A stretch of 64,000 nucleotides of DNA from Pegea sp. RAD2-039 (lineage: Eukaryota > Chordata > Thaliacea > Salpida > Salpidae), in the NCBI GenBank assembly GCA_034620365.1, contig JAQGEQ010000380.1, positions 4,154,001-4,218,000 on the forward strand, given 5' to 3'. The stretch's first letter is position 1, and each line of letters opens with the position of its first letter. The position numbers and the translations under genes were made by a program. Of the stretch, positions 2,331 through 44,384 are shown piece by piece. Under the pieces are notes generated by a model. It was not told the DNA's origin and did no database searches. It saw only the letters and a program-made list of their open reading frames with translations.

Positions 2331-2438
2331 TCAAGAGATGACGCATGTACAACCGGTTTTCTTGCTTTCTTCTTGTTCATTATTCCCATTTTCTTTCTCT
2401 TTTTGTTGAGTTATCATTCTCATCAAATCAAAGAAGAC
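2331..2438 (-). other. ral: Ral alternative terminal exon 5b (distal), CAAX = CVIS
   Basis: On the minus strand, an AG acceptor (plus-strand 2439-2440) opens onto [12 protein letters not shown], the expected Ral continuation after NVDK (family: VFFDLMREI). The exon continues for 35 residues, ending [10 protein letters not shown] and a stop. CVIS is a CAAX prenylation box. Serine at the last position is known to favour farnesyltransferase, whereas canonical Ral ends in leucine and is geranylgeranylated. The cysteine two residues upstream is a possible palmitoylation site. The tail is Glu/Lys/Asn-rich rather than strongly basic. This exon is the closer of the two to the family consensus at its start. 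Confidence 0.88.
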
Positions 2439-5400
2439 CTGAATGACGAAGATATCTGAATTTGTCATGCAGATGAGATAAAACTGGGAACAAACATCAA
2501 CTAAAACACATGCAAACGAAGCTGCAGCTGCAAATGCTCATCATCTTACTACAAGACCTTCTTTTCTTATTCTACTTTTATTAGGATTCGTAAAAAAAGT
2601 AGAATTAAAATAAAAAGAAAGAATTTTTACAAAAAGCAACAAAAATAAAGAAATTAAACTTGCTGCTTTCAATTAACATTCGTTGGAAATTAAAAAATGA
2701 TCTAACTAAAATGAAAATTACAATTGGAATGGTTCTAGATTCAAATGATCAGTTTAAAAAAAGATGAGAAAATATTTGAGAAGGTGACAGAAAGTCAATT
2801 AGAATAAAACTGAATTTTAACAGAGATGAAGAAAACAAGTATTTAATAAATAGAAATGAAAGTGGATTAATGAAAAAAAATTGGATTAAAACTTCTATCT
2901 AAATTTGTAAATAAAGAAATTCAGGATTAAAAGAAAACTCAGAAGTTGAAAGTAACCCGATTGGTGGATGCCGTTGAAAAGATTCGGATTGAATGTAAGA
3001 AGTTCACATGACTATACAACGTTTTTTACACAGAGAAAAACATCCTGTTTTCTGATTGCTATTGTCTGTTGTGTCTTGTTCTATAGTCTTGTTCTTTTCA
3101 TTTTTGATGAGGTTGAGTAAATCAAAGAAAGCCTGAAGATGGTGACATGAACGAATTCAATGAGAGAGCATGCAAAAAAAAAGTGATAAAACATCGCATG
3201 CAAACACTGAATAACAAAATTGTATTTTTAACTATTTTATCTAAAGGAGTTTTTTTTGAAATGTATTAAATTTTATTACTAGGAGTTTAAAACCCACATT
3301 AGATTTCTAACTCACAACAAAGTAAGTTGAAAGTTGTATAAAAATAATTAAAGTTTATTGATGTCAATTATAAATCGAATAAATGCTGTATTGAGTTGAG
3401 ATTTTAACATTAAACTAAACAACTTATTGCAACATACAAATGAGCTTTTGAATAATTATGGATTTTTTAAAATTGCAACAATAAATTATTTTTAATTAAA
3501 GAAGTAATTTTAAGGCCGGATATAGATGGAACGAAAAAAAAATTACTTCTTCAGTTGTAAGAACACTTGCTTAAAAAGATGAAAATTAATAGAAATTACA
3601 TATAGAGACTTTTAAATCTTTATTTTAATTTTTTTAGCAAATATTTTAAAGAATTAAAAAAAATGAATAATTTATAAGACTATCCTAAAATCAGAATTAA
3701 ATTTTTATAAATGTTAAAACTAGTTTTCAAGTGTAGAGTATAAATTAGATTTAATCAGACTTAATAAGAAAATAGTTTTTATAATTTAATGTAAACATCA
3801 CAAGAGAAAAAGTGTTCACAGACACGAAAAAACAAATTTTGAACAATAAATAAAAAAATTAAATATTAATAAGAGCTTTTAAATCATTGGTTAAGGTAGA
3901 AGTGAATCTTCTATTTTATAGATTTTAATTTTATTTATAAGTTCTATGATATTAAATCTTAGAAAAATAAACCTATTTTATTACAGGCCTCATTTCACAA
4001 AGAATCTATCGGGATGTAGTCTAAAAAAAGTTAAATTTATAAATTGGATAAAAAGGACCCTCAGTAAGACCCAAACACAAAGAAAGTCTAAAAACCACTA
4101 GCTTAGACTTTGATTGAACTAAATTGTTGGGATACAACTGAAGTTGTAATAATAAAGTAACAAAACTTGAAATCATGCATTCAATTTGAAGCATGCAACA
4201 AACCTTGTCAACATTATTCCGTGTTTTTGCTGAAGTTTCCACGTACTGAACGTTCATACGATCAGCAACCGATTGCGCCTCTGCTTGAGTGACCTGATCG
4301 TTAATATATCAGAGTTAAATATGAACCACAATTGTTTAGTTAGATTGATTTTACAACCAGCTTAAAAACCAACCAACAAAAAGTTTTTAAAAATTAAAGA
4401 AATTTGAAAATAGAAAGTTTTGAATTTCAACAATTTTTTAAAACCACAGACATCTTTCTATTCTGTTGAATATGAAAAATCTGGCAAATATCCCAGATTA
4501 TATTTTGCAAGCAAACCTGTTCCCTAGGTTATATAACAATCTCTTATTTTTGTAATTTAAATGGATCAACATCTAAACTATTTCGTGGTATTATGTTGTA
4601 TTATTTTAAACATCAGTTTGGTGGTAGTTTAACTTGTTAATCAGACTATAAGAAACTTTCTAGATACAAAAGAAGCATCTTTTCACCAAACATCTTGTCC
4701 TTTCCTCATTTAGATGACATAAATTCTTCGAGATAAATATCATCGCCTTGATGTTTGGTGAGGAGTTTTTATAGATTATCTAAATTCTAATTTAATTTAT
4801 CAAATTGGTGTGCTCTAAACGTTGAAATAGAACTAGGCTCACTGATCCAAAAATCAGTTTCCATTTCAGATGAGCTAATATGAATATTTTTAGCATTTTT
4901 TTCAATCGGTAGAGTAGGAATTTGTGTCTTACTGCCAGACAGGCGCCTAAGAGTAAAATACTCATTGTTGTCAAGCGATATCTTAAGAAGATTTAGTTTA
5001 TAAACACACTGAAAAGAAAAAGATGTTTACAAGTTTGAGAGTGGGTTATAAATCAAACTTCATAACAGTGAATAATAGTAAAGAGCAGAAAACGGTCTTT
5101 CTCTAACAGAGAGAAAATAAAATTAAATAGATAATCGTCAAAGTCAACAAAATATTGATCCAACAAAAGTTGAAATATATTCCTCTCACAAATTAATCTT
5201 AAATCTTTGAAATTAAAAGCAATTTGATTGAGATTCAAAAGATATAATCTTACCTGTCTGTTCTCTTCAAGATCAGATTTGTTACCAACTAATAGGAAAG
5301 GAATAGAACCGGCAGTTGTAGAATCAACACCCTTTACCCGCAGTATCTGATCTCTAGAGGATTATATGATAAACTAAATGTATGTTACATAACTATTCAT

Positions 5401-6247
5401 ACAAGATCTTAATTTTACTTGAGCTGAAATAATAGTTAGGTTTTTGATAGAAGAAACAGAAAGATTAACCAACTCTGTGGCAAAAGAAATAATCAAATAA
5501 AACTACTATAAAAGTAAACAAATTTACAGAAATTTTTATTGGCTTCATCTTTAGATAACTAAACAAACAATTTTACAAGATTTTTAAAAACCTGAAATCT
5601 TGAGTATCATCAAAAGAAGCTCTATCAGTTATAGAGAAGACACAAAGAAAACCCTCTCCACTACGGAAGTAGTTATCACGAATAGCAGCATAATCTTCTT
5701 GCCCAGCAGTATCAAGAATATCTATTTGAGAGTCTTGACCGTCTAGAACAACCTTTTTTCGATAGCTATCAGCTTTAGTGGGCTCATAATCTTCAACAAA
5801 CTGTGAGAGACAAATAATTTGATTTTAGGCAACTACTAATATTTTATGACTAGATGAAATGATGTTTACAATAGGTTTGTACTTTGAGTGATGATTAAAT
5901 AATTTATTATTTTTCAAATATTTACTTTTTGGTTTGCTATTTTCATCAAAAATTTAAAACTTCAGAAAAGTTTAATATTTAGTACAAAAAATATTTAATA
6001 AAAAGTAATTTAAGAAACTAGTTTAAAAGTGAAAACCAGAACTAATTCATAATTATGTCTTGAATAAAATCAATCACTAATTGAAACTGTTATATAAATT
6101 TGTTATCATTTTATATTTTTCATTTATCTTTACCTCATCATACATAAACTGTAAAGTAAGGGCTGACTTGCCAACACCACCACTTCCAACCATAATCACC
6201 TTATGAAGACTTGCCTGGGTTTGACTTTTGAGTTTAGGAGTTGCCAT
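2331..6247 (-). CDS. ral: Ral small GTPase, four common exons plus two alternative last exons
   Basis: Ras-superfamily GTPase of the Ral branch, which in other animals drives exocyst assembly, vesicle traffic and RalBP1 signalling at membranes. Coding exons in gene order are 6134-6247, 5592-5800, 5254-5353 and 4204-4293, then either 3004-3132 (5a) or 2331-2438 (5b). All junctions have GT-AG and keep frame. The start is the first ATG of exon 1 and gives MATPKLK. Seen motifs are the P-loop GSGGVGKS (residues 21-28), the Ral effector loop [16 protein letters not shown] (68-74), NKSD (132-135) and ETSAK (160-164). The core is near-identical to animal Ral through the switch regions. The common part is 171 residues; isoforms are 213 (5a) or 206 (5b) residues, against 206 for human RalA. 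There is an insertion of about five residues (GVDSTTAGS region, exon 3) before NKSD. The hypervariable tails are unlike the usual Ral tail ending in two cysteines, I and L. The promoter and 5' UTR were not located. Confidence 0.95.
2466..4197 (-). promoter_or_regulatory. Cluster of six RBFOX-type TGCATG splicing motifs around the Ral alternative exons
   Basis: In the sense (minus) strand, TGCATG occurs at plus coordinates 2466-2471 and 2509-2514, about 28 and 71 bases upstream of exon 5b. It occurs at 3169-3174 and 3197-3202, about 37 and 65 bases upstream of exon 5a. It occurs at 4174-4179 and 4192-4197, 7-30 bases downstream of the exon 4 donor. UGCAUG is the known binding site of RBFOX RRM proteins, which repress from upstream of an exon and activate from downstream. 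Two copies flank each splice site involved in the choice. The motif should occur roughly once per 3 kb per strand by chance in sequence this AT-rich, so six in under 2 kb, all near the splice sites, is unlikely to be random. Confidence 0.7.
3004..3132 (-). other. ral: Ral alternative terminal exon 5a (proximal), CAAX = CIVM
   Basis: On the minus strand, an AG acceptor (plus-strand 3133-3134) in the same phase as exon 5b opens onto [15 protein letters not shown]. It runs 42 residues to [16 protein letters not shown] and a stop. The FFDL start, the KTGC junction and the CAAX end align with exon 5b, so the two are duplicates and can only be used alternatively because each has its own stop. The tail has a KKR basic patch, two further cysteines (possible palmitoylation sites) and a CIVM prenylation box, recalling KRAS4A and NRAS tails. 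A minus-strand AATAAA at 2577-2582, between the two exons, could end this isoform. Confidence 0.85.
4683..4761. repeat. Inverted repeat inside the Ral intron
   Basis: A perfect 12-base inverted repeat (arms starting TCACCAAACATC) at 4683-4694 and 4750-4761 is separated by about 55 bases, within the intron between exons 3 and 4. The middle contains a second, imperfect inverted match (GATGACAT / ATATCATC). It has no coding sense. It could be a remnant of a small transposon or an RNA structure; asymmetry makes a miRNA precursor unlikely. Confidence 0.5.
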
Positions 6248-29140: not shown

Positions 29141-30625
29141 CAGACATACAAGCCAAATATAGCTAACTAGTTACTTAAAAAAGGCGTGTAAACAAAGGAT
29201 AGAAAAACACTTATTATTGAGATTAGATTGAAGTCTTTCTTTTGATTTCTTTAATTTTTTAACAGTTTTTAATAAAGCTATTCACGTTTATAAAATGAAC
29301 AAATGAAATAACAATAAATACATCCATCCAGTCATTGAAACATATATGATGGAATTAGAATGAAATATTTTATGTAGAATCTACAAACATCATGCAGGCT
29401 TGTATATGTATAGAATACTGATAATGAACAGTATTTACTTGTTATGTCTTAAAGATAATTCTCAGAAACAATTTATTTTTTGCTTTTACAACTAATCGTT
29501 GTAGTAATTTAGGTTATTAACGATCGACAATTAAGTATTTAATTAAGAAAGTCAAATTATACTCAAAGCATTACCTTATATTTGCAGTGAAGTAATGCAA
29601 ATTCCTTCTTCTTATTCTAAAAATAAAAAAAAAAAACTTAATTTAAACTGAAGTTGATTAGAAAATATAATAATTTATTTGCAGTGCCCAATTAAAACCT
29701 TTATAAATAATTATTGAAATGATATAAATGAAAATATAAAATTATATTCATAAAATTAGTAATGATCAAAAATTGAACAAAAAGATTATAATCTGTAACC
29801 AACTGAGTTTAGAAGCTCAGGGTAATAAAACGCACTTAGCAAGTCAAGCACCTAAAAGATCTTTTTATTCATTGTTGTCTATTATTTCTATAAGTACCTT
29901 AGATAATACTGATGTATATTTTATTGAATGAAATACTATATGTTTTTGTTTTTGAAACTTTAAGTAAAAATATTTTATTAACTTTATTAAAAACTCCAGG
30001 AATTATATGTTCGAATATTACCATGAATAGTTTTAAAAAGATATTATAAAAAAACAAATCTGTCGCTGATAAATATGAATTAAGTGCAATAGAAAAAAGT
30101 TCAATTTTTTTAAATTTTATGTAAGCAATTTTTCACTTATAAGTTTATAATGATTATTGATAATTATTTTTAGAAATGCAATATGGAAACTTATTTATTT
30201 GTTGCTTATATTTTGGTGGTTTACTTTTTTTGTTTAAAGTTTTTTTAACGTAATTTTGTGTAACGGTATAATCTAAAAGGGTTTGAACGCATTATTCTTA
30301 AAAAACAAGCTTGAAACATAATTAAATTTAAAATATCTACCTTAAACTAAAATTTAAAAGAGTTGAATTTTCAAGCGTAATTTTGAGAACTTCTTTTGCA
30401 GTGGCCTTTCATCAACAAGATTGATCTTTAATTAAATCAACTTTTAAAGAAAAAAAACTTCTTCTTCCGTTCTTTTGCATCTGTAATCACGTGATACAAG
30501 CAGAAGCCACAAGCAAGCCAGCTTTTCATCACATGAAATCATAACAGGGGAAAACCCACAAAATCGTCATTAGTTCTTTGAACAATTCAACAATTAGAGT
30601 GAACGACAGAAAATCTCCTGTGAGA

Positions 30626-33600
30626 ATGGCGACTACAGCTTCTGGGGAGCTAACTGGATTTCATCACCTACATCATGATCAGTACTACCCATCACTTCAT
30701 GATGCATATCATCAACACCACGCATTCCAGCCTCCTAATGTATCTTCATACCACGATGTCCTTGCAAGTGGATCAGGTGTAGGAGCACACGGAGTATCAA
30801 GTGGTTATGGGATGTTTGGTGATCAGCGAAACACAGTCACGCCATCTCCACCGGATAGTGAAATTAACACCAACCAGCATCATCATCATAGTGGCTTTGA
30901 TATCAAAAATCTTGGTCTTGTTTCATCTACTTCATCAGCTTCTACTTCTGCAGCTTCTGCTATTAGTATCTCAATTTGTAGTAATGATGAAGTTAAAAGT
31001 AATATTGATAAATCACCCAACTTTTATTTACCTCCTATCGGTGATGCACTGTCTCGTCGCGGAGATAAGACGTCTTCATCCCGGCAAAATGTAGATGATG
31101 ATTCTGTTGCTGAAAAATGCCGTGACAGCAACAATGAGAAGTTTTCAGGACTGTGCAAGCTTGCAAGCCTATCACAAACATCTTCAAATCGAAGCAAGAC
31201 TTCAGAAAGTCGACAAAATAACAAACTGAACAATTCAAGTCCTCAACGTAGCACTGAATTCACTAGCAACAATTCAACAAACATCAAAAACGAAGATAAC
31301 ACCGCGATGCTCTACGATCTTCGAAACTTTGCGCAACAATTTGGACACGCTCTCCGCGATTCCCCCCACGAATCAGGAAGCGAAATGAATCTGTTGCCAA
31401 GCAACAACAACACTTCCAACCACGGGGACTGTACTTCTTCTGCATCGGTAGAGCTGTTCTTTCGATCTGAAGCAACTCAGTCAAACTGTGACAACCGCAC
31501 AGCTAATGACGTCACAGCAATTACTGAAGTCACTCAATGTCCGACTGATGTGCCGAGCTACGCGACTCTCACGCCATTGCAATCGCTACCGCCCATAACT
31601 TCTGGTGTTGCCATGTCCGCAGGAAATAACAGCTACGCGACTTTAATTGGAGGCCCTGATATAGGATGTGATCAAGGGTACTCAAAGATGGGTGGAATGG
31701 GACATGCTCTTCCTCCGCTATCAAATCGGATGCTTTTAAACGGATTTGCAGCTCAATCTGGACGAGGATCAGCTCCTACAATGCAGACACAAGCAACTGC
31801 GATGGATGTCGTGAATCATGCAGCAGCAGCTGCAGCAGTTGCCTCCTTTTCACCTTACACGAAAGCAGCAGGCCAACCGGTGATTGGTTCAAATATCATC
31901 TCTCAGCAAGTTGGAAGCAATCCATATGAAACTGGGATGTTTGGAGGAGAAGTGGCAGCTTTTCAAGGGCACCATCATCCACATATGTTCCCTCCTCCAC
32001 CTCATAGAGCTGCAGCGTTTGTTCCTCAGTATCAACCTTCTGCGTTTCCAACTGATCTAGCTTCATCCATACACTCCAGTGGTACTGTGCCCTCAACGAC
32101 CACTTTAGTAGGTAGACGAAGCTCAAGACCAGCACAATCACAGCATCAGAAATCTTGTGGTGAGCAAGCAATGAAGCAGCATAAAAATAATGTTGGAAAC
32201 TCTGGTGTGAATCTTGCTTGCATGGATCTAAGTGATCGAGCCGGATCAGGAGCTTCACAAAGTATTGAAGAAGTGAATACAAAAGCTGTAGCTGCAAAAG
32301 TGACAGCTGAATTGAAGCGATATAGCATACCACAAGCTGTATTTGCTCAGAAAATCTTACACCGAAGTCAAGGGACCTTATCTGATCTTTTACGCAATCC
32401 AAAACCTTGGTCCAAGTTGAAAAGTGGGCGAGAGACATTTCGAAGGATGTTTAAATGGTTGCAGATACCTGAAGAGACTCGTATGCCGGATCTACGCCTC
32501 GCAGGTGAGATTTAATTCATATTTTAGACTATATTTTGATAGGTGTTAAAAGTAAAGTTGATTTATGTGAGTCGAGTTCGATTCAATACAGGAAAAATTC
32601 AAATTTCTAAGTTTAGAATTACTTTAAAACCGAAGAGATTTTTGTAGTATTGATTGTTTTATGATCGATTTTATTGAAACGAATTAGTTTTTGGCTCTTC
32701 AGAAGTTTCACCTGGTAGGTTTATTTGAAAAAAAATCTGTTTTATAAACGCATCTGACCTTCGATTGTCTATTCATCAAATTTTCTATCTACACTACACT
32801 CCAAATCTCTCTCTAGTTTCTTATTCTTTTGCTTCTTTACTCTTTACAAGAGGAGCTTTCTGGCATTATGAGAAGTTGAAATCGATCAACAGTCAACAGT
32901 AGCACAACAAACATGCCCCTAGTAAAAAACTCCATCTGAAATCAATGTTTCTCTGTTACTTAGAAGTTTGTTACTTTTAGAAAAACTGATGCTAGTACAC
33001 TGGCCAATATTACTAAATTGCCAAACAAGTTTCGGTTATTATGAGCAAACTGTTTCTTAGTTATCTACAGTTTCCGAACCAATCTTTCTATATTTTGCTG
33101 ATTATCAGCCACTTCAGAAATTGTGTTTCAAATTGAAAGTAGAAGAATTCTTGAGTAGACTACTATAGATCTAAAATAGAAGATACTACTTCAGGGTTTG
33201 TTTTTTAAACAAAACACAAATTGTGTTTATATTAGCTTTTTATTTTTTTATTTATTAGATTAAAAACGAACACTATACCAACACGACTTATTAAATTTTT
33301 GTTATTTATTTGTCCTTTAAAGTGAGTTTAAACTTAAAAAATAAAGTAAACCGTAAACATCCGATTTTATTAATAAACTGATATTCAAAATAACATTAAA
33401 AAGCAATTTTTAAATCGGTTGAAAAACAATTTGATTCAATGTCTTCTTAGCTCTTACAAGTTTTCTCTTCTTGAAATTCTGATAAAGTCATATAATATCA
33501 GAAAAGAGAGCACCTGACTTTTGAATGAGAGACCAAACAACAGTTGCTGATAGCACAGCACTATTTGCTATCAAGCGCAGCTTTGCCAGTTTGCAAGTTT

Positions 33601-36600
33601 TTACTATTCTTGACACTTAGTGGTAACAGTAAAAAGACACACACAAGTGCGTCAGTAGCGCGCGTGGCTCCAGCGTTCGCTCGAATCCCCTAGGGTGTTG
33701 GGTTGCAACTGGTCGTGGTCGTAATGAACGCCTGGGATTATCTGTCGACTATGAACGAAAATCTGACCCGAAAATACGCCATCGATAACGGCAGTGTATA
33801 GCGTTGATGCTGCTAGCAAAATACTGAACTTTGTTTAGTGAAAAGATCTTTTTTCTTTTTGTAATCATCAATGGTTTAGAAGAGCGGTATTTGTGCAAAG
33901 GATAAATGTGAAAATAGTCGCCGATTTTGAACAGGTTGCTTGAAAAACTTCTTTTTGAAAATTTCTTAAAACTTAATTGAGTTATATGAATAATTAGCAA
34001 AAAATAGTTAAAGTTTTTACAAACTTTTTTTAGGTTTATAAATTCTATCAAGATCAATTGAAAAACTCACTAAAATTTTACAACAACAAAGATGTCTGTA
34101 AGAAAGATAAAATATTGATAAAAACCTAAATTTGATAAATTGAAAAAAAACAATTTTTATTTAATATTTAGCTTATAATTTAATAAACTTCTATATATAT
34201 GAGATAAGTTTTTAAAGTTAAACTTATATCTATTTTATGTGAGATGACATTTGAATAAACAACAACTGTGCAGTTTAATAAACTTTAAAACATTTAAAAA
34301 ATGTTTCTAACCAAATACTCTCATATTTGTAGTTCTTTAATATCTAAAATAAATCCAGAACCGTTCAGGTTATATTTTTGAGTATTTAACTTAATAGAAA
34401 TCTTTTTTTATAACTCGATTATTTTAAAACAATTTTTAGTATTGTAAAAAGTTGGTTTTCAAGATTAACTGTTATTTTAGAAACAAAAACTTATTAAGTA
34501 TTAGTTAATATTTTTTTAAATTTTAATGATAAACTTTATTGAACGTATTATAAATTTTTAGAATACTTTATAAAATCTATGTAAACATAGAATTTGTGAT
34601 TACAACATAATTTTGTTTATGTCTGAGTAAAAAGAATTCCCAAATAGTTCAGATTTCATTTTGATAAAGGTTTTATACAAAAAAGAAACTAAACTGATTT
34701 TGAAAGTGACAATTTTTTATTAAGAATATGAGAAAGTTATCTTTAGTAAATAAAAGCTAAAATTAAATATTATTTAATGGTCTGCAGAATTTAAGATAGA
34801 TATAAAACTTTAAGTTTTTGAAAAACTGACAAGTACATAGTTAATCAGTTCAAATATTATATTTATTATAGTTTGAAAATAAACTGTTTGTAAAGCTTGT
34901 TTTAAGCCTAATTATAAGTTGACACTTTGTGAAATAACTAGTTTATCATAATAATTGAGAAAGGTTTTTTTATTTTCAACAGTTTTTAGAAAAAAAAGTA
35001 GTCGAAATTTTAATCAGTTTTGCCAAGTCCTAGAAATAGAAAGAAATAATTTTAAGCTATATCTACAAAAACTAAACCCATAAATCTTTAACCTTGTAAT
35101 TTAAACAAATGTTTTAAAAGGTATTAAAACATAAAGTAAAATATAAGTGGTTAAAAAGTAGTTCGAATCGAATATGTGTTTTGAAAACAATTTCTAATCT
35201 ACAGTAAGTTCTTTGTATAAGCTTGAACATCGCCAGTTCTTTTCTCTTGTAATGGCACCTCTAAGCCAGTTGCGTTTCTTCAATTTTGCATTAGAAAATC
35301 GATGCACAAGATGCTTAAGTATTGAGAGAAAGAGTAAAACCGATCGATATTGCTCTTGTTCTATCTTCCTCGGTTTCTCCTGTTCACTAAAATAGCTGTC
35401 CAGGTTGCATCTTAAAGGTCTTTCTTGCTTCTCTAACTCTAGCACAAAATTGAGCATGAACAAATTTTGTACAGAATGTGTTGTTGTAGGTAAAGCAAAA
35501 CGAACAAAATTTTGACGGGAACTTGTCATCGGCTTCTTCAGTTACTACTTTTACTAGTTTTGTAATTACACTTACATGAAAATGTTGTTTGCTCTTTTAG
35601 CTAGATATCCTTTTATTTTCTTTCATCTAAATTGAAGTAATTTTTTTCTATCATTCAATACCTATTTAAGTTTCTATGATATAATCTTTAATACTCCAGT
35701 TTTTCTTTTGACTTTATCAAATCTAAATTATTATAACATTTTCAAATGCTTCTAGGTTTTTTTCACCTAATAAAACTGAAATTTTTTGATTTTTATTAAA
35801 TCATTGAAACACATTAAAATAAACTGTTCCTAAATTAGTACAAGTGGAAATTTTTCCTTAGTTCTTTTCATCTGTTTTATTATAGTATTATTCTGTTTGC
35901 TCATTTAATAGTTACCAGCAATAAGTTCAAACTAAAGTTGCAAGCTGTAAATTATAAAAATTAATCTAAGATAAAAGTTCTTCATATTTTTAGAATTATG
36001 AACATATGAATATTACACAGGGTAAATATTTCAATAGTTTTTTGTGCTAAATGTAAATATTTTCATTGATTTTATTTATTACTATAATCAGTGTTTCAAC
36101 AGTACACCATGTACGAAACACTTAGATAAATGAAAGATCATTGATTAATAACTACTTTTTTTAAAGTGCGTAAAAACTTTATATTTATCTTTTAAAATAC
36201 ATTTTGTTTTTTTCACGAGGATACTTTATTTTTATTTGTTGCAATTAAATGCAAGAGATAATCATGAATTTCTCAATTTGATATGTAATTAAGTTATTTT
36301 GAAATTTAGAGCTCATTGAAAAGGTAATTTTGATGAATAAATCATTCTATGAATAGTCACTAGGCTAAAAAATAAATTAATGAAGCTGCTTTTTGTACAT
36401 TTTCACCTACTATTTATTTGGCCTATATATTTCCCTCTAAAAGAAGTTTATTTATCAAAAAACAAAATTTAATAGTTTATCTTTTTAACTCAAATGTTTT
36501 AAAAAGATATCAAATTTAAAGTGACAATTCTTGATTGATACTAAATTAATTAAGTGCTAAACTAAGATCGGTAAATAACACCTAAGTTTTGATAATTTAG

Positions 36601-39600
36601 AAATAATTATGACTATTTCTAGTTGTAGTCTTACAAAATGAAGTAAAATAAGTTCTATAAAATGGTTGATGAATAAATTAACATTTAAAGTTTCTCTGTG
36701 TTCAATTAATTAAACATTTTTTTTCAAATTCTGAATTTATAGATAAATCATAAGACTTTATTAAGTAGACAGAGCTTTTTGAATTGTTAAAAAGCTTCAG
36801 CTTTTTATTTGTTTTTATTATATTATAGTTTAAACTGTTCTAAATACTAAATATATATTTTTGAGTGCCGAAATATTTTATAAATTGTAATACTTTTGAG
36901 CTGTTTGATAAGAAAGTTTGAAATTTTTCCTCGATTAATATTTCATCAGTAATTACTACTTAGTAAGAACTTTGTGAATTCTATAATTGATGCCACTTTG
37001 TATCTTACATAGAGAGCTTAGATTTTGTTTTTTTAAACATAAAATGAAATGTTTAGGAACTTAAAGTTTGTTAACTTGTTTAATGTTAGATATTAGGTAA
37101 AGGTATTTAACTTATCATTGCACTTTTTCTTTTGCAAGCTTAGTTTGTTATCAATCTACATTTAACAAACCATGAGCAGTATCTTGAAATTTTTGATTAA
37201 CATGGTACAGCAAATATATATTCAGTTATTTGATAAAACACCTAATCAAGTTTTTTTCTTTGGTGTACTTTTGCTTTCTAATAAATGAAAAATCTTTTAA
37301 CATGATACTTAATTTTCTAATGTGTCTGTAAATACATCTACAGTTACTTATAATGTATTGTAATAAAACATAATTACTGTATAATATACTTAAAACGTTA
37401 TGCAGAAAAAAGTTCAGACAAAATATATGTTGTTTACATAACCTATATCATATAGAGTTTTAATTGTCTCTGAATGTTTTTACACCACTACAAAAGTAAT
37501 TAAGCAAATAATTGATATAGTTAATGAAATATCTCTATAAATATTAATGATTTTTATCAAAATGCTCAAAAAAGGTAATATTTAAATGCTACATAATATT
37601 ATAGTGCATATATGAAAAAAACTAAACAGTAGATATATTCAATGAAAAATTGTTTCTGCTTATTATTGATATTATTTTATATTTTTTAGTTAAAAACAGA
37701 TTCTTTAAAACTTTTATAGTAAACCAAATACAGCAATTACTGTATATACTTATGACCATTTTTAAGAAACACTAATTCTATTAATCAAATGAAAGATAAG
37801 TTTTAAAATTTTCAACGTTTAGTTCAGCTTTTCATGTCTGTGTGACTAGCTATAAGTAGTTTGTGCTGTTTGCTTATATCTAACAATGATATGATATTAG
37901 AATCAAGCTAAAACTTTTTTGTTTTGGCTTCTAAAGTTTTGATAATCTATTTAAATTTATTTTCACTCACTTTTGTTTTTGAGAGCGTAAAATATATTTA
38001 ATAGTTTAGTTTTCATATAAAAGTTATAAAGTCGGTCTGAAAGTATTAAATTATTTTTAAACTTATACTTGCACTTTGCTTTCTTTTACCTGATATAAAG
38101 CATTAGTGAGTTAGGGTTAGTGTCACCTATCTCACTTATAAACATGAAATAAGTTTGAAAATATTAGCAGCAGTGTAAATTATTCAATAGCTACAATTTT
38201 AATTAAAACTTTTGGATAAAACTAATCATAAAATAATGATGAAGTTTTACGATTAAAGCACTTTACGGTTTTTCTTTCATTTAACGTCATTTAAAACAAT
38301 ACAAAATTTGCACTAAAACTGTAAACTTGAAGAAAATTACCGAATGACTACTTATCTTTTTGCTCAATTTACAAGCATACACAAAATTTCACCAAGTTAA
38401 AACCAATGATAACAATTGCAGACAATAAATGAGATAATTAAAGAGTTTTATTTATTGAAAGTGGTTAATATATTCACCTATAAGTTAAAAGAATTTCTTC
38501 AGCTTGCTAAGGCTTCTTCAGCTCAAAACTGTTTAAAGTCTTGCCAAAAGTTTAGAACTTTTTTCTTTGATGTGTTTAATAATTTTATTAGAAGTGTTTT
38601 AAGTTTGATTTATATTTGATACATCTTAAGTTTTTTATTACAACTTTACATTGATTAATCTTAAAACTCTAAAAAAATCTTTAGTGAATCAACTTTTTAT
38701 GAAATTGTTGAAGATTTCTGAATGAATGCTACTATAAGAAAAAAGTAAAACTATTTAATTAAAAAACAGCAACGTTAGAATTTTTATTACATTGAAAAAC
38801 ACTAGACTCATTATTTTAATCATTTTTCATTACTATAGATTAAAGATTCAAATTCGTCTTTTGATTACTAGTATACAGAATTTATTACTTTTATAGAAAA
38901 GGTTCTTTAATTAGGAGCTTAAAATCGAGAGCATGGAAAATATTATTAATGTATTTAGTGATTATAACCTTAAATAGAAATAATGTAAAACTATCCAAAT
39001 ACAAGTACTTGTTGTCAGCAATTGTTGCTTCATTTTAAGTATTTGAACAAATTCTTTTACGAGTGGACTTGTTATTCAAAGTCCTTTTCAAAGCTCTATT
39101 GATACAAGTTTTTTTTTGGTGTAATTTTATACTTTAAAAATAAATAAAATGGGAAATTTACTTTTTGTTAAATGTAATTTTTAACTTAAATAAACTTAGC
39201 TAACTGTATATTTACTTGTTAGCTGTTTAAAATTATTTATAATCTTGTCTTTAAATAGAATTATTTTTATCTTAGAAAGAATTATTTTATCCAATATATT
39301 GTTCGTCTCAATATTTTCAGCAGATATTTTTGTAAAAATATTTTTGTAGTTGAAAGTAGTTACTTATAGACTTGTAATTGTATAAAGTTACATAACACTT
39401 GAAGAGATCACTCATCAATTCTGCAAAATACATCGTATATAGTAAATGCTCTTCATTTTTCATATACAGAATAATAATCACAAATGCAGATAGTTCACGA
39501 ATAACTTTATTACTTTAACTATTTTTCATGAACATTCTTGAAAACATAAAGCAAATGTCAGATAACTTAGAATGAAATCGTCTACAAGCTTCTAATTGAC

Positions 39601-42600
39601 TAAATATAGAAGTTATTGTTAGAAAAGTCATCTTAAAAATATCTTAGTCCAAACAACATTTACACAAACGACTTTATTTAAACAATAAACTTCGTCACAA
39701 TCCTTTTCTATCAAAGCTTGACCCTTTTCCACCTGCCTTCAGGCATTATCACTAAGTTATAAGAAAAGCTTGCCGCCTGCAGCTCGACCCACAATCATAT
39801 CAAAGAATAAATGAGCTTATTACAAGAATATCGCGTGCCCAGCATTTAATTTAGTTAGCGAGAATGGAACTATTCTCTTGTTCAGATAACCGCAATTCAA
39901 ACACTAACCATCAGTCGCTGTCCATCTGGCCTGTTCTCCACAAGCCAGTGACGTCATCATATACGTCTGTATAAAGCGGTGATTCCAAAGTCTGATATTT
40001 TTCGTACTTTCGTATTGTTTGAATCCTCATTTACATAGAAATCTAAATATAATTTAAAATGAGATAAATAGCTTTGTTTTTAATCTTGGCTATGTAGAAA
40101 GTTTAACTTGAATTTGATGTTGAGTGACTCACCAACTTTGTACCCTATTGTTCTCTTAAAATTTTAACATGTTTATATGACATGAAAAAATAGATATTAA
40201 AAGTCCGTAGTCTGTAAGATATAGTTGCTATAATTATATCAACATGAAATTCATCTTTTAGTTATATGTATGGTATATTTTATAAATTATATAGTTTGAA
40301 AACCTTTAGCATTATACAAAGTTATTTAATTTCTCTTACATTAAGTTATCCTGTTTATCATTTGTCATGCTGTTTTAGAATTCAGAATTGACATTTTTAC
40401 GCTTGCAAGTCAAAACTTCTTTTTTAAAATGGTTTGTGAGTAAAATTAGCTTTATGAAATTGAAATATACTGGGAATATTTTATTGCATTTTAGAAATAA
40501 AGTCAGAAAGTTTAGAATTGTTCGAAAAAGTTTATAATAAAAATTTCTTACTTCACTTTGAAAAAGTTTAAGTTTTTTGTCTAAGAATAGCTTTTAAGCT
40601 TTACCAAACGGATATGAGATTTTAACAAATGAAATTTTAACTAATGTAAGTTTTGATAAAAAAAATTACTGTACAGTTACTAATCGATAGCTTAAATATA
40701 CTGCTCTTACTCGGTGTAATTTAATAAATTGTAAGATGGACTGTGTTAACAAAAATAATGATCATATCACATTGTATTTTTTGTTATTCCTAAATAATTG
40801 TTGCTGGTTTTATGATTACTAGAAAGTTTGAAAATATATAAATATCAACTGTAAAAACTTCAAAAAGTTTTCTTCAATTTGTTATAATCAGTAGATTAAT
40901 CAGGAGTAAAAGAATAAAAGACTTACAAAAAGACTTATTTCGTCTCTGAATAAGTTTTGAAATTAAATTAAGAAAGTTTGATGAAAGAAACTGTTTAAAA
41001 TGAAGTAGTCTTAACAGCTTGAATTACAAAGTAATATTTACAAGGTAGAAACGTAATAGACAAGTTAAACACTTCAAATATATTACAAGACTCTTATTGA
41101 CATCTCCAAACTACATGCTCATTTTTAGATCTTTCCGAGTTTCTACAAACAGGTGATTGGTAATGATAGAATGAAAAAAAAGATTTAAACCATCTGCTTC
41201 TCAAAAACTTAAGTTGAAGCACTCATTATTATATACAATGACATAACATTTGGCGGTTAAAATATGATAACAAACAATTGTGAAATCAGTAAATGATGAA
41301 AATGTGCTTGATTTATCTACTTTCAACTAGTTTTAAGTGTTTTGCGTCATCTTATTTAACTTCATTTTTCAAGCTGTCTTTTCTTTAGATAGATGTTTGT
41401 ATTTTTAAACTCAGTAAAAAAAAGTAAGTAAAATAGGTTTTGTAGATTCAAGTTATGCTATTTGCTGTATGGTTCAGATTCAAATCTTTTTTATAATAGT
41501 TTGCTTTAATTAACTTGAAGATTTAAGCAAAGAGTTATAAATCTTTTAAGTATTTCAATATAATGAAAATAAAATTAAAGTTAATTATCAATTTAACTTA
41601 AGGTTTTGTTAATTTTTCAAATTTTCATAATTCAATTAATGTTAAAAAACAAATATTAAAAGAATTAGGTTTTAGTTTTGACAATACAAATGTAATTCTT
41701 ATTTAAATTTTGAAAAAAAGTTTACAGCCAATTTATTTGATCTAAATATAAACTAAATGAAGAGATTATCGTAGAAATATAAGCGCGTAGTACAAATAAA
41801 CCAAAAAAAGAGTTCAATTAAAAAAATAGAAACAAAAAAGACTTAAAAAAGAAAGTGATCAAAGAAAGAAGCGCATTTAAAAGAATTGTAAGAATTCTAA
41901 AAGAATAACAGAAGAGAAAAAAAGAGATGAAGAAAAACTAGTGTAAAAGAAGAAAGAGTTGGTGAAAAAGTAAAATTTCACATTTAAATTTCTCGTCATT
42001 TCAAATAACCTAACATATTAAGCTCTTCTGGGTTTTTAATTTCCAAAAACGACCACCCCCCAAGTTGCTACCTGTGACAGCATTTTTGCAAATTATTTTC
42101 ATTCTTCATTCGATCGCAAGACCGGAGGCTCACTTGTCTACCAAGCTAGCGTTCGAGTAGTCGAAAACAGAACACAGGAGTAAAGCACGTGGTAGTAGGC
42201 AAAGTAATTCGATTAGACTTCCTTATTTTGTCTACTACGCCACCCTGTGGCAGGTCGTATGTGCTGGTGAGTCATTGAATTGACGGATTTTATTGAAAAT
42301 GGAAGAAAAAAATAAGGTAGACTTTTTGTACGTTGGTCGAACCAACAAAAGTAAATCTTCGGACAAATTTATTCTTTTTTTTTTACTTGTTATTACCTTC
42401 AGTAATGAAGAGGAGCATTTTGACAGAAGACCTGATTGAAGGATTTTGTAATTGAGTAAGAAGAAAAATGTAGTGAACTGCACTATTCTCATTCTTCTCA
42501 AATATTATGAAATAAATTAAATTTAAATTACAACTCTTATAAAGTCATTTATTAAAGTCAAACTACCAATTTATCTTTTAAAGATAAGATATGCAGGGAA

Positions 42601-44384
42601 TTAATCTTACAAAATTAAAATCCTTTTTCAAATTGACTCAATGAAGTTATCATTTCAATTAATTAATTTGTTTGAAACATCATTTAGTCACAACTTGATT
42701 CATAGTTTATTTCCAATTAATAAGTTAGATGATTAAGTTAAGCCCACATTTTATATTTCAATTATTTCAAAGATTGAATTTGATAGAATTTATAGAATTA
42801 TCTTTTTTGTTACAGAATATTCTAAACGTTGTTAGTTCAGTTTAAATACAGTGAGTGTCATTTTTAGAAATCTTATATAATTTGAAGAAAAATGCTTTGT
42901 ATTAAGATTTCCAAACTCATTGTTTTGTTGATACAAAAACTTAATAGTTTACTACTTGTTGTATTTTACTTTTGTTGTCTGAAGAAATTTATTAAGAAAC
43001 TGACTAAGGACAAAATTATTTTTCGTGTTAACCGCACAAGCTGTTAGTCTAATAGTTTCCAGTCATTTGGGACGTTATGTGGTGTATTGAACCATCTGTC
43101 TAGGCCAATGCGGTGAAAAAGATGAGGATAGGTAGTAGTGAAGAGAGACTGTTTCTAATGTTTAAAGTACTGTAAGTCATCTACATTAAATTCAACGACA
43201 TTTTGATTTGAGCGTGAAGCTTTGGTTGCAAAGAAAATGCTTAATGGTTCAGCAACATGAGTATTTTTACCACTTTCTCTAAAAGTAAAAAGTTTCAAAA
43301 AAATTTCGAATAGACCCATCAGTTAGCGTATTGTCATTTGAAAGCGTCTGTAAGGACTTTAGTAGATTATTTTTATATTGCAATCTTACTCTGTTGCATA
43401 ATTAAATGAATTTTTCTTAAAAAATTATCCATATCTCGACACCAGTAAATAAAAATCAGATTTAATATTTTGACTTATCTAATATTGCTCTAATAAACAG
43501 CATGTAAACGCAAAGAGGAAGAAAAACTTCCTGATAACGAAGCTCAAGGTCCTAAGAAACCGAGACTTGTATTTACTGATAAACAGCGAAAAAATTTACA
43601 TGAGATTTTCAAACAAAATAAACGACCAAGCAAAGAAATGCAGGTAAGAAAATCTATTTTAATTTGTTACTTCTTGCTTGAAAAAAAGGTTTTAAAGATC
43701 TTGTCCCTTTGATAATTTTTCGGCTGATTTATTATTCATAAACTCGCAGAAATTGGTTTTTTGTAAATTAACAAAACTGTTTTAATCAGCTCACTTTTGC
43801 GTATCACTGAATACCAACTTTTCATTTTTCCTTTTTTTGTTGTCATGACATTTTAGCTAATCATATCGCGCGATCTCGGCCTTGAAGTAACGACCGTCAG
43901 CAACTTTTTCATGAACGCCAGGCGTCGGAGTCTAGACAAATGGAAAGACGAAGCGGAGTTGAGATCGCACGGCAGTGGAACTGTAAAGAAGGAAGGATCA
44001 TCAATGGGTCCGACTGGGGAGAACAGGAACGCGGAGAACTTCTTTGGAAGTCGCACTATTGTGGCACCGACCACATCAGTTACTACCAGACATCAGGTCA
44101 CCAATCAGGGCTTTGATTCTCCTGTATCTCAGCAACAAGCAACTACAGATCGTTCTTCACGCTTCTCATACAATAACTCAGTGAACAACGGAGATGATAG
44201 AAGCACTGGAGATTCGTCTCCTCTTGCTCATCACCTTCAATCGGCTAACAATCATTATGGAAGTGTGAGTTTGGAACACCATCACCATCATCATCACCAT
44301 CATCACCATCATACTCCACTTCCTCAGCCTTCTGTGCCGATTCCACATCTTGGATCTTCATCCTTGATCCACTCCTACCGCTGA
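30626..44384 (+). CDS. onecut: Onecut (HNF6-type) CUT-homeodomain transcription factor
   Basis: Exons 30626-32504, 43501-43643 and 43857-44384 join in frame to 849 residues. GT-AG borders interrupt the protein just after the CUT domain, at the junction of LRLA and CKRK where vertebrate Onecut genes also split. The ATG has a good context (AGAATGG) and is the first in a frame closed by a stop at 30542. The N-terminus is His/Ser/Asn-rich. An STP-box motif YATLTPLQSLPPI is at residues 312-324. An alanine run comes before the CUT domain (about 546-626), which has KRYSIPQ, FAQKIL, RSQGTLSDLLRNPKPW and SGRETFRRM. The homeodomain (about 643-702) has VSNFFMNARRRS in helix 3, with the family-specific F48 and M50. 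A His run of about 13 lies in the C-terminal tail. Onecut proteins bind ATCGAT/ATTGAT-type sites in the nucleus and act in neural, photoreceptor and endodermal fates. The intron between exons 1 and 2 is 11 kb and holds possible regulatory islands. Confidence 0.96.
33640..33800. promoter_or_regulatory. GC-richer island in the Onecut intron with an ATCGAT site
   Basis: A sharply GC-richer stretch containing CAGTAGCGCGCGTGG and CGCTCGAATCCCC-type sequence and an ATCGAT at 33781-33786, a hexamer known to be bound by CUT-homeodomain factors. No open frame. Position about 1.1 kb into the intron fits an intronic enhancer, possibly self-regulated; this is inference. Confidence 0.3.
39680..39990 (+). 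promoter_or_regulatory. Possible internal promoter or enhancer in the Onecut intron (CRE + TATA)
   Basis: A 300-base island of raised GC ends with a full CRE, TGACGTCA, at 39949-39956 and a TATAAAG at 39970-39976, 13 bases further on. That order and spacing are typical of a core promoter reading to the right, with a start expected near 40000. No coding exon is seen directly after it, so it could drive a shortened Onecut transcript, a non-coding RNA, or be an enhancer. Confidence 0.35.
42030..42250. promoter_or_regulatory. GC-richer island 1.3 kb before the Onecut homeodomain exon
   Basis: Contains a C-run, a CACGTG E-box at 42186-42191 and a hairpin-forming inverted repeat (listed separately). 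Stops occur in all frames. Candidate conserved non-coding element in the large intron. Confidence 0.3.
42189..42243 (+). ncRNA. Hairpin resembling a small pre-miRNA, 5' arm shares GGTAGTAGG with let-7
   Basis: Arms at 42189-42207 and 42223-42243 pair over 15 contiguous positions (two G-U wobbles when read on the plus strand), then a two-base bulge and four more pairs, around a loop of about 15 bases. The wobble positions favour the plus strand as the RNA. The 5' arm contains GGTAGTAGG, nine bases identical to the start of let-7, but the preceding bases differ (GTGG instead of TGAGG), so the let-7 seed is not preserved. The stem is shorter than a usual miRNA precursor. It could equally be a decayed inverted-repeat element. 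Confidence 0.25.

Follow-up and report, generated by a model that had tools for sequence, protein, structure and literature searches.

A Ral gene with two tandem alternative last exons, a probable membrane-anchor switch with paired Rbfox motifs at its competing splice sites

A survey of 167 members of the RAS superfamily indicates that nine members besides KRAS show C-terminal alternative splicing, and Ral is absent from the nine as they are presented there (PMC9882654). According to the same account, CDC42 is the only surveyed member in which the membrane-targeting tail is changed in a KRAS-like way. KRAS exons 4A and 4B are tandem alternative last exons behind a phase-0 intron, with different membrane-targeting tails, and it was suggested that 4A derives from exon 4 of NRAS (PMC9882654). 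In the case of CDC42, exons 6 and 7 are alternative last exons that change both the lipid anchor and the 3′ UTR, the brain isoform being palmitoylated and the ubiquitous one prenylated (PMC6411841). The gene described here resembles both systems: the analogy with KRAS4A/4B, drawn in the original prediction, is apt, and CDC42 provides an equally good one. The differences are that this is a Ral locus, not vertebrate KRAS, and has no KRAS4B-type polylysine tail, whereas CDC42 belongs to the Rho family and has PTBP1/2 and QKI as its described regulators (PMC6411841). Moreover, the last 10 residues alone are described as differing between CDC42 isoforms, in contrast to the 42 and 35 residues contributed by the two last exons of Ral.

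Alternative exons under Rbfox control offer another set of comparisons. Unlike 5a and 5b of Ral, which are last exons, the alternative exons of egl-15 are internal, and calcitonin/CGRP is a peptide hormone gene whose alternative exons are not homologous. Rbfox proteins bind the hexamer TGCATG (PMC3585155, PMC3126832). In C. elegans, RBFOX acts on the mutually exclusive exons 5A/5B of egl-15 and 7a/7b of unc-32 through UGCAUG in a flanking intron, represses egl-15 exon 5B from the upstream intron, and is accompanied by the partner factors UNC-75 in unc-32 and SUP-12 in egl-15 (PMC3585155). As described there, these two genes have one UGCAUG stretch in one intron each, not three pairs as in Ral. 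Calcitonin/CGRP resembles Ral in that the choice between terminal exons is under Fox-1/Fox-2 (PMC3647115, PMC3126832). Human RALA also has an alternative 3′ end, but this is an intronic polyadenylation site, and the account of that event, as far as it describes it, mentions no duplicated CAAX exon (PMC10960005).

We analysed a window of 64 kb, which is the whole stretch of DNA presented here, together with the genome that contains it (105.7 Mb in 387 contigs; about 29% G+C in 200,907 sampled bases). On the minus strand of the window, five coding exons joined in frame make up a Ral gene, the last exon of which is present in two versions, 5a and 5b (Table 1). Among proteins with solved structures, the top match of the spliced protein in the Protein Data Bank is RalA (2bov, E 1e-84); RalA and RalB provide the ten best distinct sequences (E 1e-84 to 1.1e-79), followed by KRAS at 3.3e-56. 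The protein also matches the Pfam Ras family (1e-55). Its G-domain is nearer to RalA/RalB than to other Ras-family proteins, and a C-terminal CAAX box is present with either last exon.

Table 1. Coding exons of the Ral gene and TGCATG motifs at its competing splice sites, in window coordinates
Feature	Position	Strand	Description and evidence
Ral coding exon 1	6134..6247	-	Start codon, P-loop GSGGVGKS; splice sites and frame; RalA match E 1e-84
Ral coding exon 2	5592..5800	-	Switch regions; splice sites and frame, RalA match
Ral coding exon 3	5254..5353	-	NKSD motif; splice sites and frame, RalA match
Ral coding exon 4	4204..4293	-	ETSAK motif, ends NVDK; common splice donor AAG/GTTTGT (exon/intron)
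Alternative last exon 5a	3004..3132	-	129 nt, 42 aa; helix AFFDLL; two Cys and KKR before CAAX box CIVM
Alternative last exon 5b	2331..2438	-	108 nt, 35 aa; helix VFFDLM; one Cys before CAAX box CVIS, without a basic run
TGCATG	4192..4197	-	+7 from exon 4 donor
TGCATG	4174..4179	-	+25 from exon 4 donor
TGCATG	3197..3202	-	-70 from 5a acceptor
TGCATG	3169..3174	-	-42 from 5a acceptor; between T run and CTCTCT tract
TGCATG	2509..2514	-	-76 from 5b acceptor
TGCATG	2466..2471	-	-33 from 5b acceptor; overlaps branch-point-like TGAC

The genome reads as one of animal type, encoding Ral, Rbfox and, in the window, an apparent Onecut-type gene of the cut-homeodomain kind. A search for COX1 gave no match in this assembly, in which the mitochondrion may be missing. 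The open frames of this putative gene lie on the plus strand at 30545-44384: the frame 30545-32515 has a cut-domain-like end, and the frame 43857-44384 has a homeodomain-like start followed by a long His run. On the minus strand, positions 1-700 of the window hold a broken reverse-transcriptase-like fragment that reads FIDLTIAFDNVSKKGLLSTLLK and is surrounded by stops; lying downstream of Ral, it is probably what is left of an old retroelement. An additional open stretch was found in intron 3 (5008-4787, minus strand), with a good pyrimidine tract and an AG; it would continue exon 3 in phase 0 for 73 codons before a stop. Its use would truncate Ral after NRQ, and it may be a third terminal exon or a product of chance. 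It is single copy in the genome, a Pfam comparison gave no match with E of 1 or below, and codon usage gave it no support. In 15 background loci, 3.7% of the start positions are covered by open stretches as long as this one.

The two last exons are alike in their organisation. Each is preceded by an AG, each frame joins exon 4 in phase 0, and in each one residue precedes FFDL, followed by KTGC, the CAAX box and a TGA stop. When the DNA of 5a and 5b was aligned, none of 2000 dinucleotide shuffles scored as well. A hand alignment took in 29 codons and set aside those that cannot be aligned, 14 out of 43 in 5a and seven out of 36 in 5b. Six of the 29 are identical, seven show synonymous differences only and 16 encode a different residue; at the base level, 49 of the 87 aligned positions agree. 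The helix of 5a is further from that of RalA than is the helix of 5b, and a search of the whole genome with 5a returned 5a itself as the sole match. The one donor is thus followed by two homologous last exons of the same phase that each bring a stop and an anchor of their own, an arrangement of the KRAS and CDC42 kind. The coordinates, AG acceptors, shared phase, junctions with exon 4, FFDL helices, KTGC, CAAX boxes and stops given in the original prediction all proved exact. The exon homology, the shared phase and the intact frames and CAAX boxes also bear out its central proposal, so that there is good sequence support for the view that the last exon of Ral was duplicated in tandem and that alternative use of the copies would give two membrane anchors. 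This pair is apparently of independent origin from that of KRAS, given that both exons carry the Ral-type FFDL. Exon shuffling from another Ras gene was also considered and is unlikely, since both exons carry the FFDL of RalA; other Ras-family fragments in the genome that extend to this place read, for example, VFHDL, LFAEI and AFDTI (12 loci searched, compared by eye).

The two tails appear to differ in the anchor that they would provide. A CAAX box ending in M or S points to farnesylation, and a cysteine nearby to palmitoylation. The last 15 residues of 5a have a net charge of +4, those of 5b a net charge of -1. The tail of human KRAS4A resembles that of 5a, which would be a KRAS4A-like anchor (CIVM with basic residues and two further cysteines), and 5b would be an HRAS/NRAS-like one (CVIS, a single cysteine close to it, and no run of basic residues). 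Either exon would supply a last helix to complete the G-domain and a tail to go with it, and the lipidation and localisation predicted from these tails would place the Ral switch on different membranes in different cells. RALA and RALB are described as geranylgeranylated proteins whose tails contain seven and eight lysines (PMC9139244). Measured in the tail only and against these two human paralogues, both 5a and 5b look Ras-like, not Ral-like: the lysine-rich tail of geranylgeranyl type is found in neither, as the tails end in M and S and 5b is without a basic run. The genome also encodes a second Ral, intronless and 56% identical (C121:201556-202092), whose tail ends KKKKKISLMELQRCQII, with the CAAX box CQII, and is lysine-rich like the human Ral tails. 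This second gene looks like an old retrocopy.

The most conspicuous feature of the introns is the hexamer TGCATG. The original prediction had pointed to CATGCA, read on the plus strand, upstream of both last exons, which is TGCATG on the transcript strand, and had taken it as part of a set of flanking words kept through the duplication. The words are real and their occurrence is not random, but they do not testify to flank homology. The upstream flanks of 5a and 5b are not significantly alike overall (414 of 2000 shuffles were as good), nor did they become so once TGCATG was masked and the acceptor end trimmed away (81 of 2000); likewise, the 300 nt downstream of the two exons show no significant likeness (152 of 500). 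The idea that the intron flanks are related through the duplication is therefore not upheld, and what the flanks share is the paired TGCATG. A further pair, beyond those originally reported, is located at the exon 4 donor.

At this locus, 1.73 kb of the minus strand contain six TGCATG, out of 14 on that strand in the 64 kb window. In the three 90-nt flanks, six are seen against 0.035 expected (Poisson p 2.6e-12 without correction for the 4096 possible hexamers). No other hexamer is as enriched there, and none of 20,000 Markov simulations reaches six. The background consisted of 22 loci with 200,907 bases (seven with Ras-family or Rbfox genes, two beside the window and 13 at arbitrary coordinates); in it the rate of TGCATG equals the expectation from base composition, and the densest stretch as long as the cluster at Ral has three copies. 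The other seven splice sites tested, namely the donors of exons 1-3 and the acceptors of exons 2, 3, 4 and the extra open stretch, have no TGCATG in the adjacent 100 nt. In the whole genome, pairs of the form TGCATG-N12-38-TGCATG number 280 (130 forward, 150 reverse), some of them in tandem repeats, and three of the 280 fall here, one at each competing splice site. The backward word gave 14 pairs, a weak control given that the reversed word contains CG, itself rare (16 versus 55 copies). Among the matches listed, and judged by eye, the only other group of at least three pairs within 2 kb on one strand and outside obvious repeats is at C3:4415629-4416138 on the plus strand, with three pairs; it is possibly another Rbfox-controlled gene. 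UGCAUG is therefore present near the competing splice sites of Ral beyond chance, as would be expected of exons regulated by Rbfox.

A candidate protein for reading these sites is encoded in the genome. A query with the human RBFOX1 RRM matched contig C11 in two pieces. Once joined, the exons of the one RRM at that locus gave E 6e-36 with RBFOX1 structures and 6e-32 with C. elegans ASD-1. The Rbfox region itself (C11:1824000-1833900, minus strand) has three TGCATG within 1.73 kb on the transcript strand. This would fit the self-regulation that is mentioned for Fox pre-mRNA (PMC3126832), although the fit is weak, as another locus has as many on one strand.

Taken together, it is likely that this is a single Ral gene with a tandem-duplicated last exon, in which Rbfox controls a mutually exclusive choice between 5a and 5b and thereby switches the membrane anchor. 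The common donor of exon 4 can pair with the acceptor of 5a or with that of 5b, and one protein cannot contain both exons, since each ends in a stop. From the motifs we infer that Rbfox would bind the UGCAUG pair that closely follows the donor, as well as the pair that precedes each acceptor by about 75 and 40 nt, and the direction of its effect is inferred likewise. Bound near -40 and -75, it may hinder recognition of the branch point, the pyrimidine tract or the acceptor by U2AF; the -33 site of 5b coincides in part with the sole branch-point-like word recognised in the 60 nt before that exon, the pattern used being simple and a weak guide that found none for 5a and exon 2. Alternatively, Rbfox could bridge the donor to an acceptor. 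At +7 and +25 it could strengthen the exon 4 donor, and strengthening of a weak 5′ splice site by Rbfox was reported in MYH9 (PMC13158602). As both acceptors carry TGCATG pairs, Rbfox alone need not decide the direction and a partner factor is likely; the winning exon might be set by such a second factor or by unequal strength of the two acceptors.

Use of both exons, as predicted from their sequence, has to be weighed against a quite unlikely reading in which only one last exon is used, the other being either the relic of a recent loss or an exon spliced in rarely and without function. In its favour, codon usage marks neither exon as coding: with a training set of five stretches (Ral exons 1-4, the second Ral, the open frame beside it and two Onecut open frames), the score per codon is -0.13 for 5a and -0.06 for 5b, compared with +0.31 for exon 4, whose good score is partly circular because exon 4 is itself in this small set. 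Moreover, 5b has a competing AG, out of frame, 17 nt upstream of its acceptor (exon 3 likewise has an extra AG, at -20), and 5a is the exon that departs more from the RalA helix. Neutral decay was simulated in 1500 runs with substitutions only and no indels, scoring the open frame, the stop, the CAAX Cys and the AG. At 0.1 substitutions per site these features are all kept in 28% (5a) and 30% (5b) of the runs, a proportion that a recent relic could still fit, but they are kept in 6.5% and 5.5% at 0.25, in 0.7% and 1.0% at 0.5, and in 0.07% and 0% at 1.0. Since the features seldom survive at the higher divergences, it is unlikely that either exon is long dead. At a divergence where simulated decay seldom spares such features, neither exon has lost its frame, stop, CAAX box, AG acceptor or FFDL helix, and the two TGCATG of one acceptor correspond in position to those of the other, in flanks that are no more alike than shuffles. 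As for the 3′ ends, there is an ATTAAA at 2847 and an AATAAA at 2582 after 5a, and the nearest AATAAA after 5b is at 1729; no poly(A) signal stands out after either exon, AATAAA being expected about every 480 nt at this base composition.

Another reading, unlikely but deserving some weight, overlaps with the preferred one in that it keeps both exons in use; here the choice would not be made by Rbfox, and the TGCATG pairs would be incidental, serve another protein or have a role at the DNA level. Hexamer matches alone are no proof of binding, and the genome-wide count of pairs, tandem repeats included, speaks for this caution. Yet two TGCATG stand at exactly each of the three competing sites and at none of the seven others, and the Rbfox RRM is encoded in the same genome. 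The near-palindromic TGCATGC also brings to mind RNA pairing of the Dscam type, with a docking site after exon 4 and selectors before 5a and 5b, as TGCATG is nearly self-complementary when C follows and is present at all three sites. However, the duplexes predicted between the first 80 nt of the intron and the 110 nt before each acceptor do not surpass those of shuffles, of which 152 in 1000 did as well for 5a and 527 in 1000 for 5b. Pairing of this type is very improbable. The choice between 5a and 5b by Rbfox is the reading that we prefer.

The original prediction held that such an arrangement was undescribed for Ral. This fits the open-licence literature, in which no Ral counterpart was recognised among the matches listed (titles and starts of abstracts); the papers considered include accounts of C. 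elegans ral-1 (PMC6534338) and fly Ral (PMC5307359), together with PMC7279237. A wider interpretation, to which we would give an even chance, is that this is the third independently evolved switch of a GTPase anchor by tandem last exons, after KRAS and CDC42, with Ral linked to Rbfox through UGCAUG pairs at both acceptors as well as at the donor, and cells that express Rbfox, typically neurons or muscle, carrying Ral on a different membrane. Under this interpretation, both tails would have left the lysine-rich anchor of geranylgeranyl type for a Ras-like one of farnesyl plus cysteine, and the intronless second Ral would be the one that keeps a lysine-rich tail. The presence of Rbfox sites at every competing splice site leads to a direct prediction of which cells make which tail. 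If true, the case of Ral would suggest that the last-exon solution to changing a membrane anchor has evolved at least a third time.
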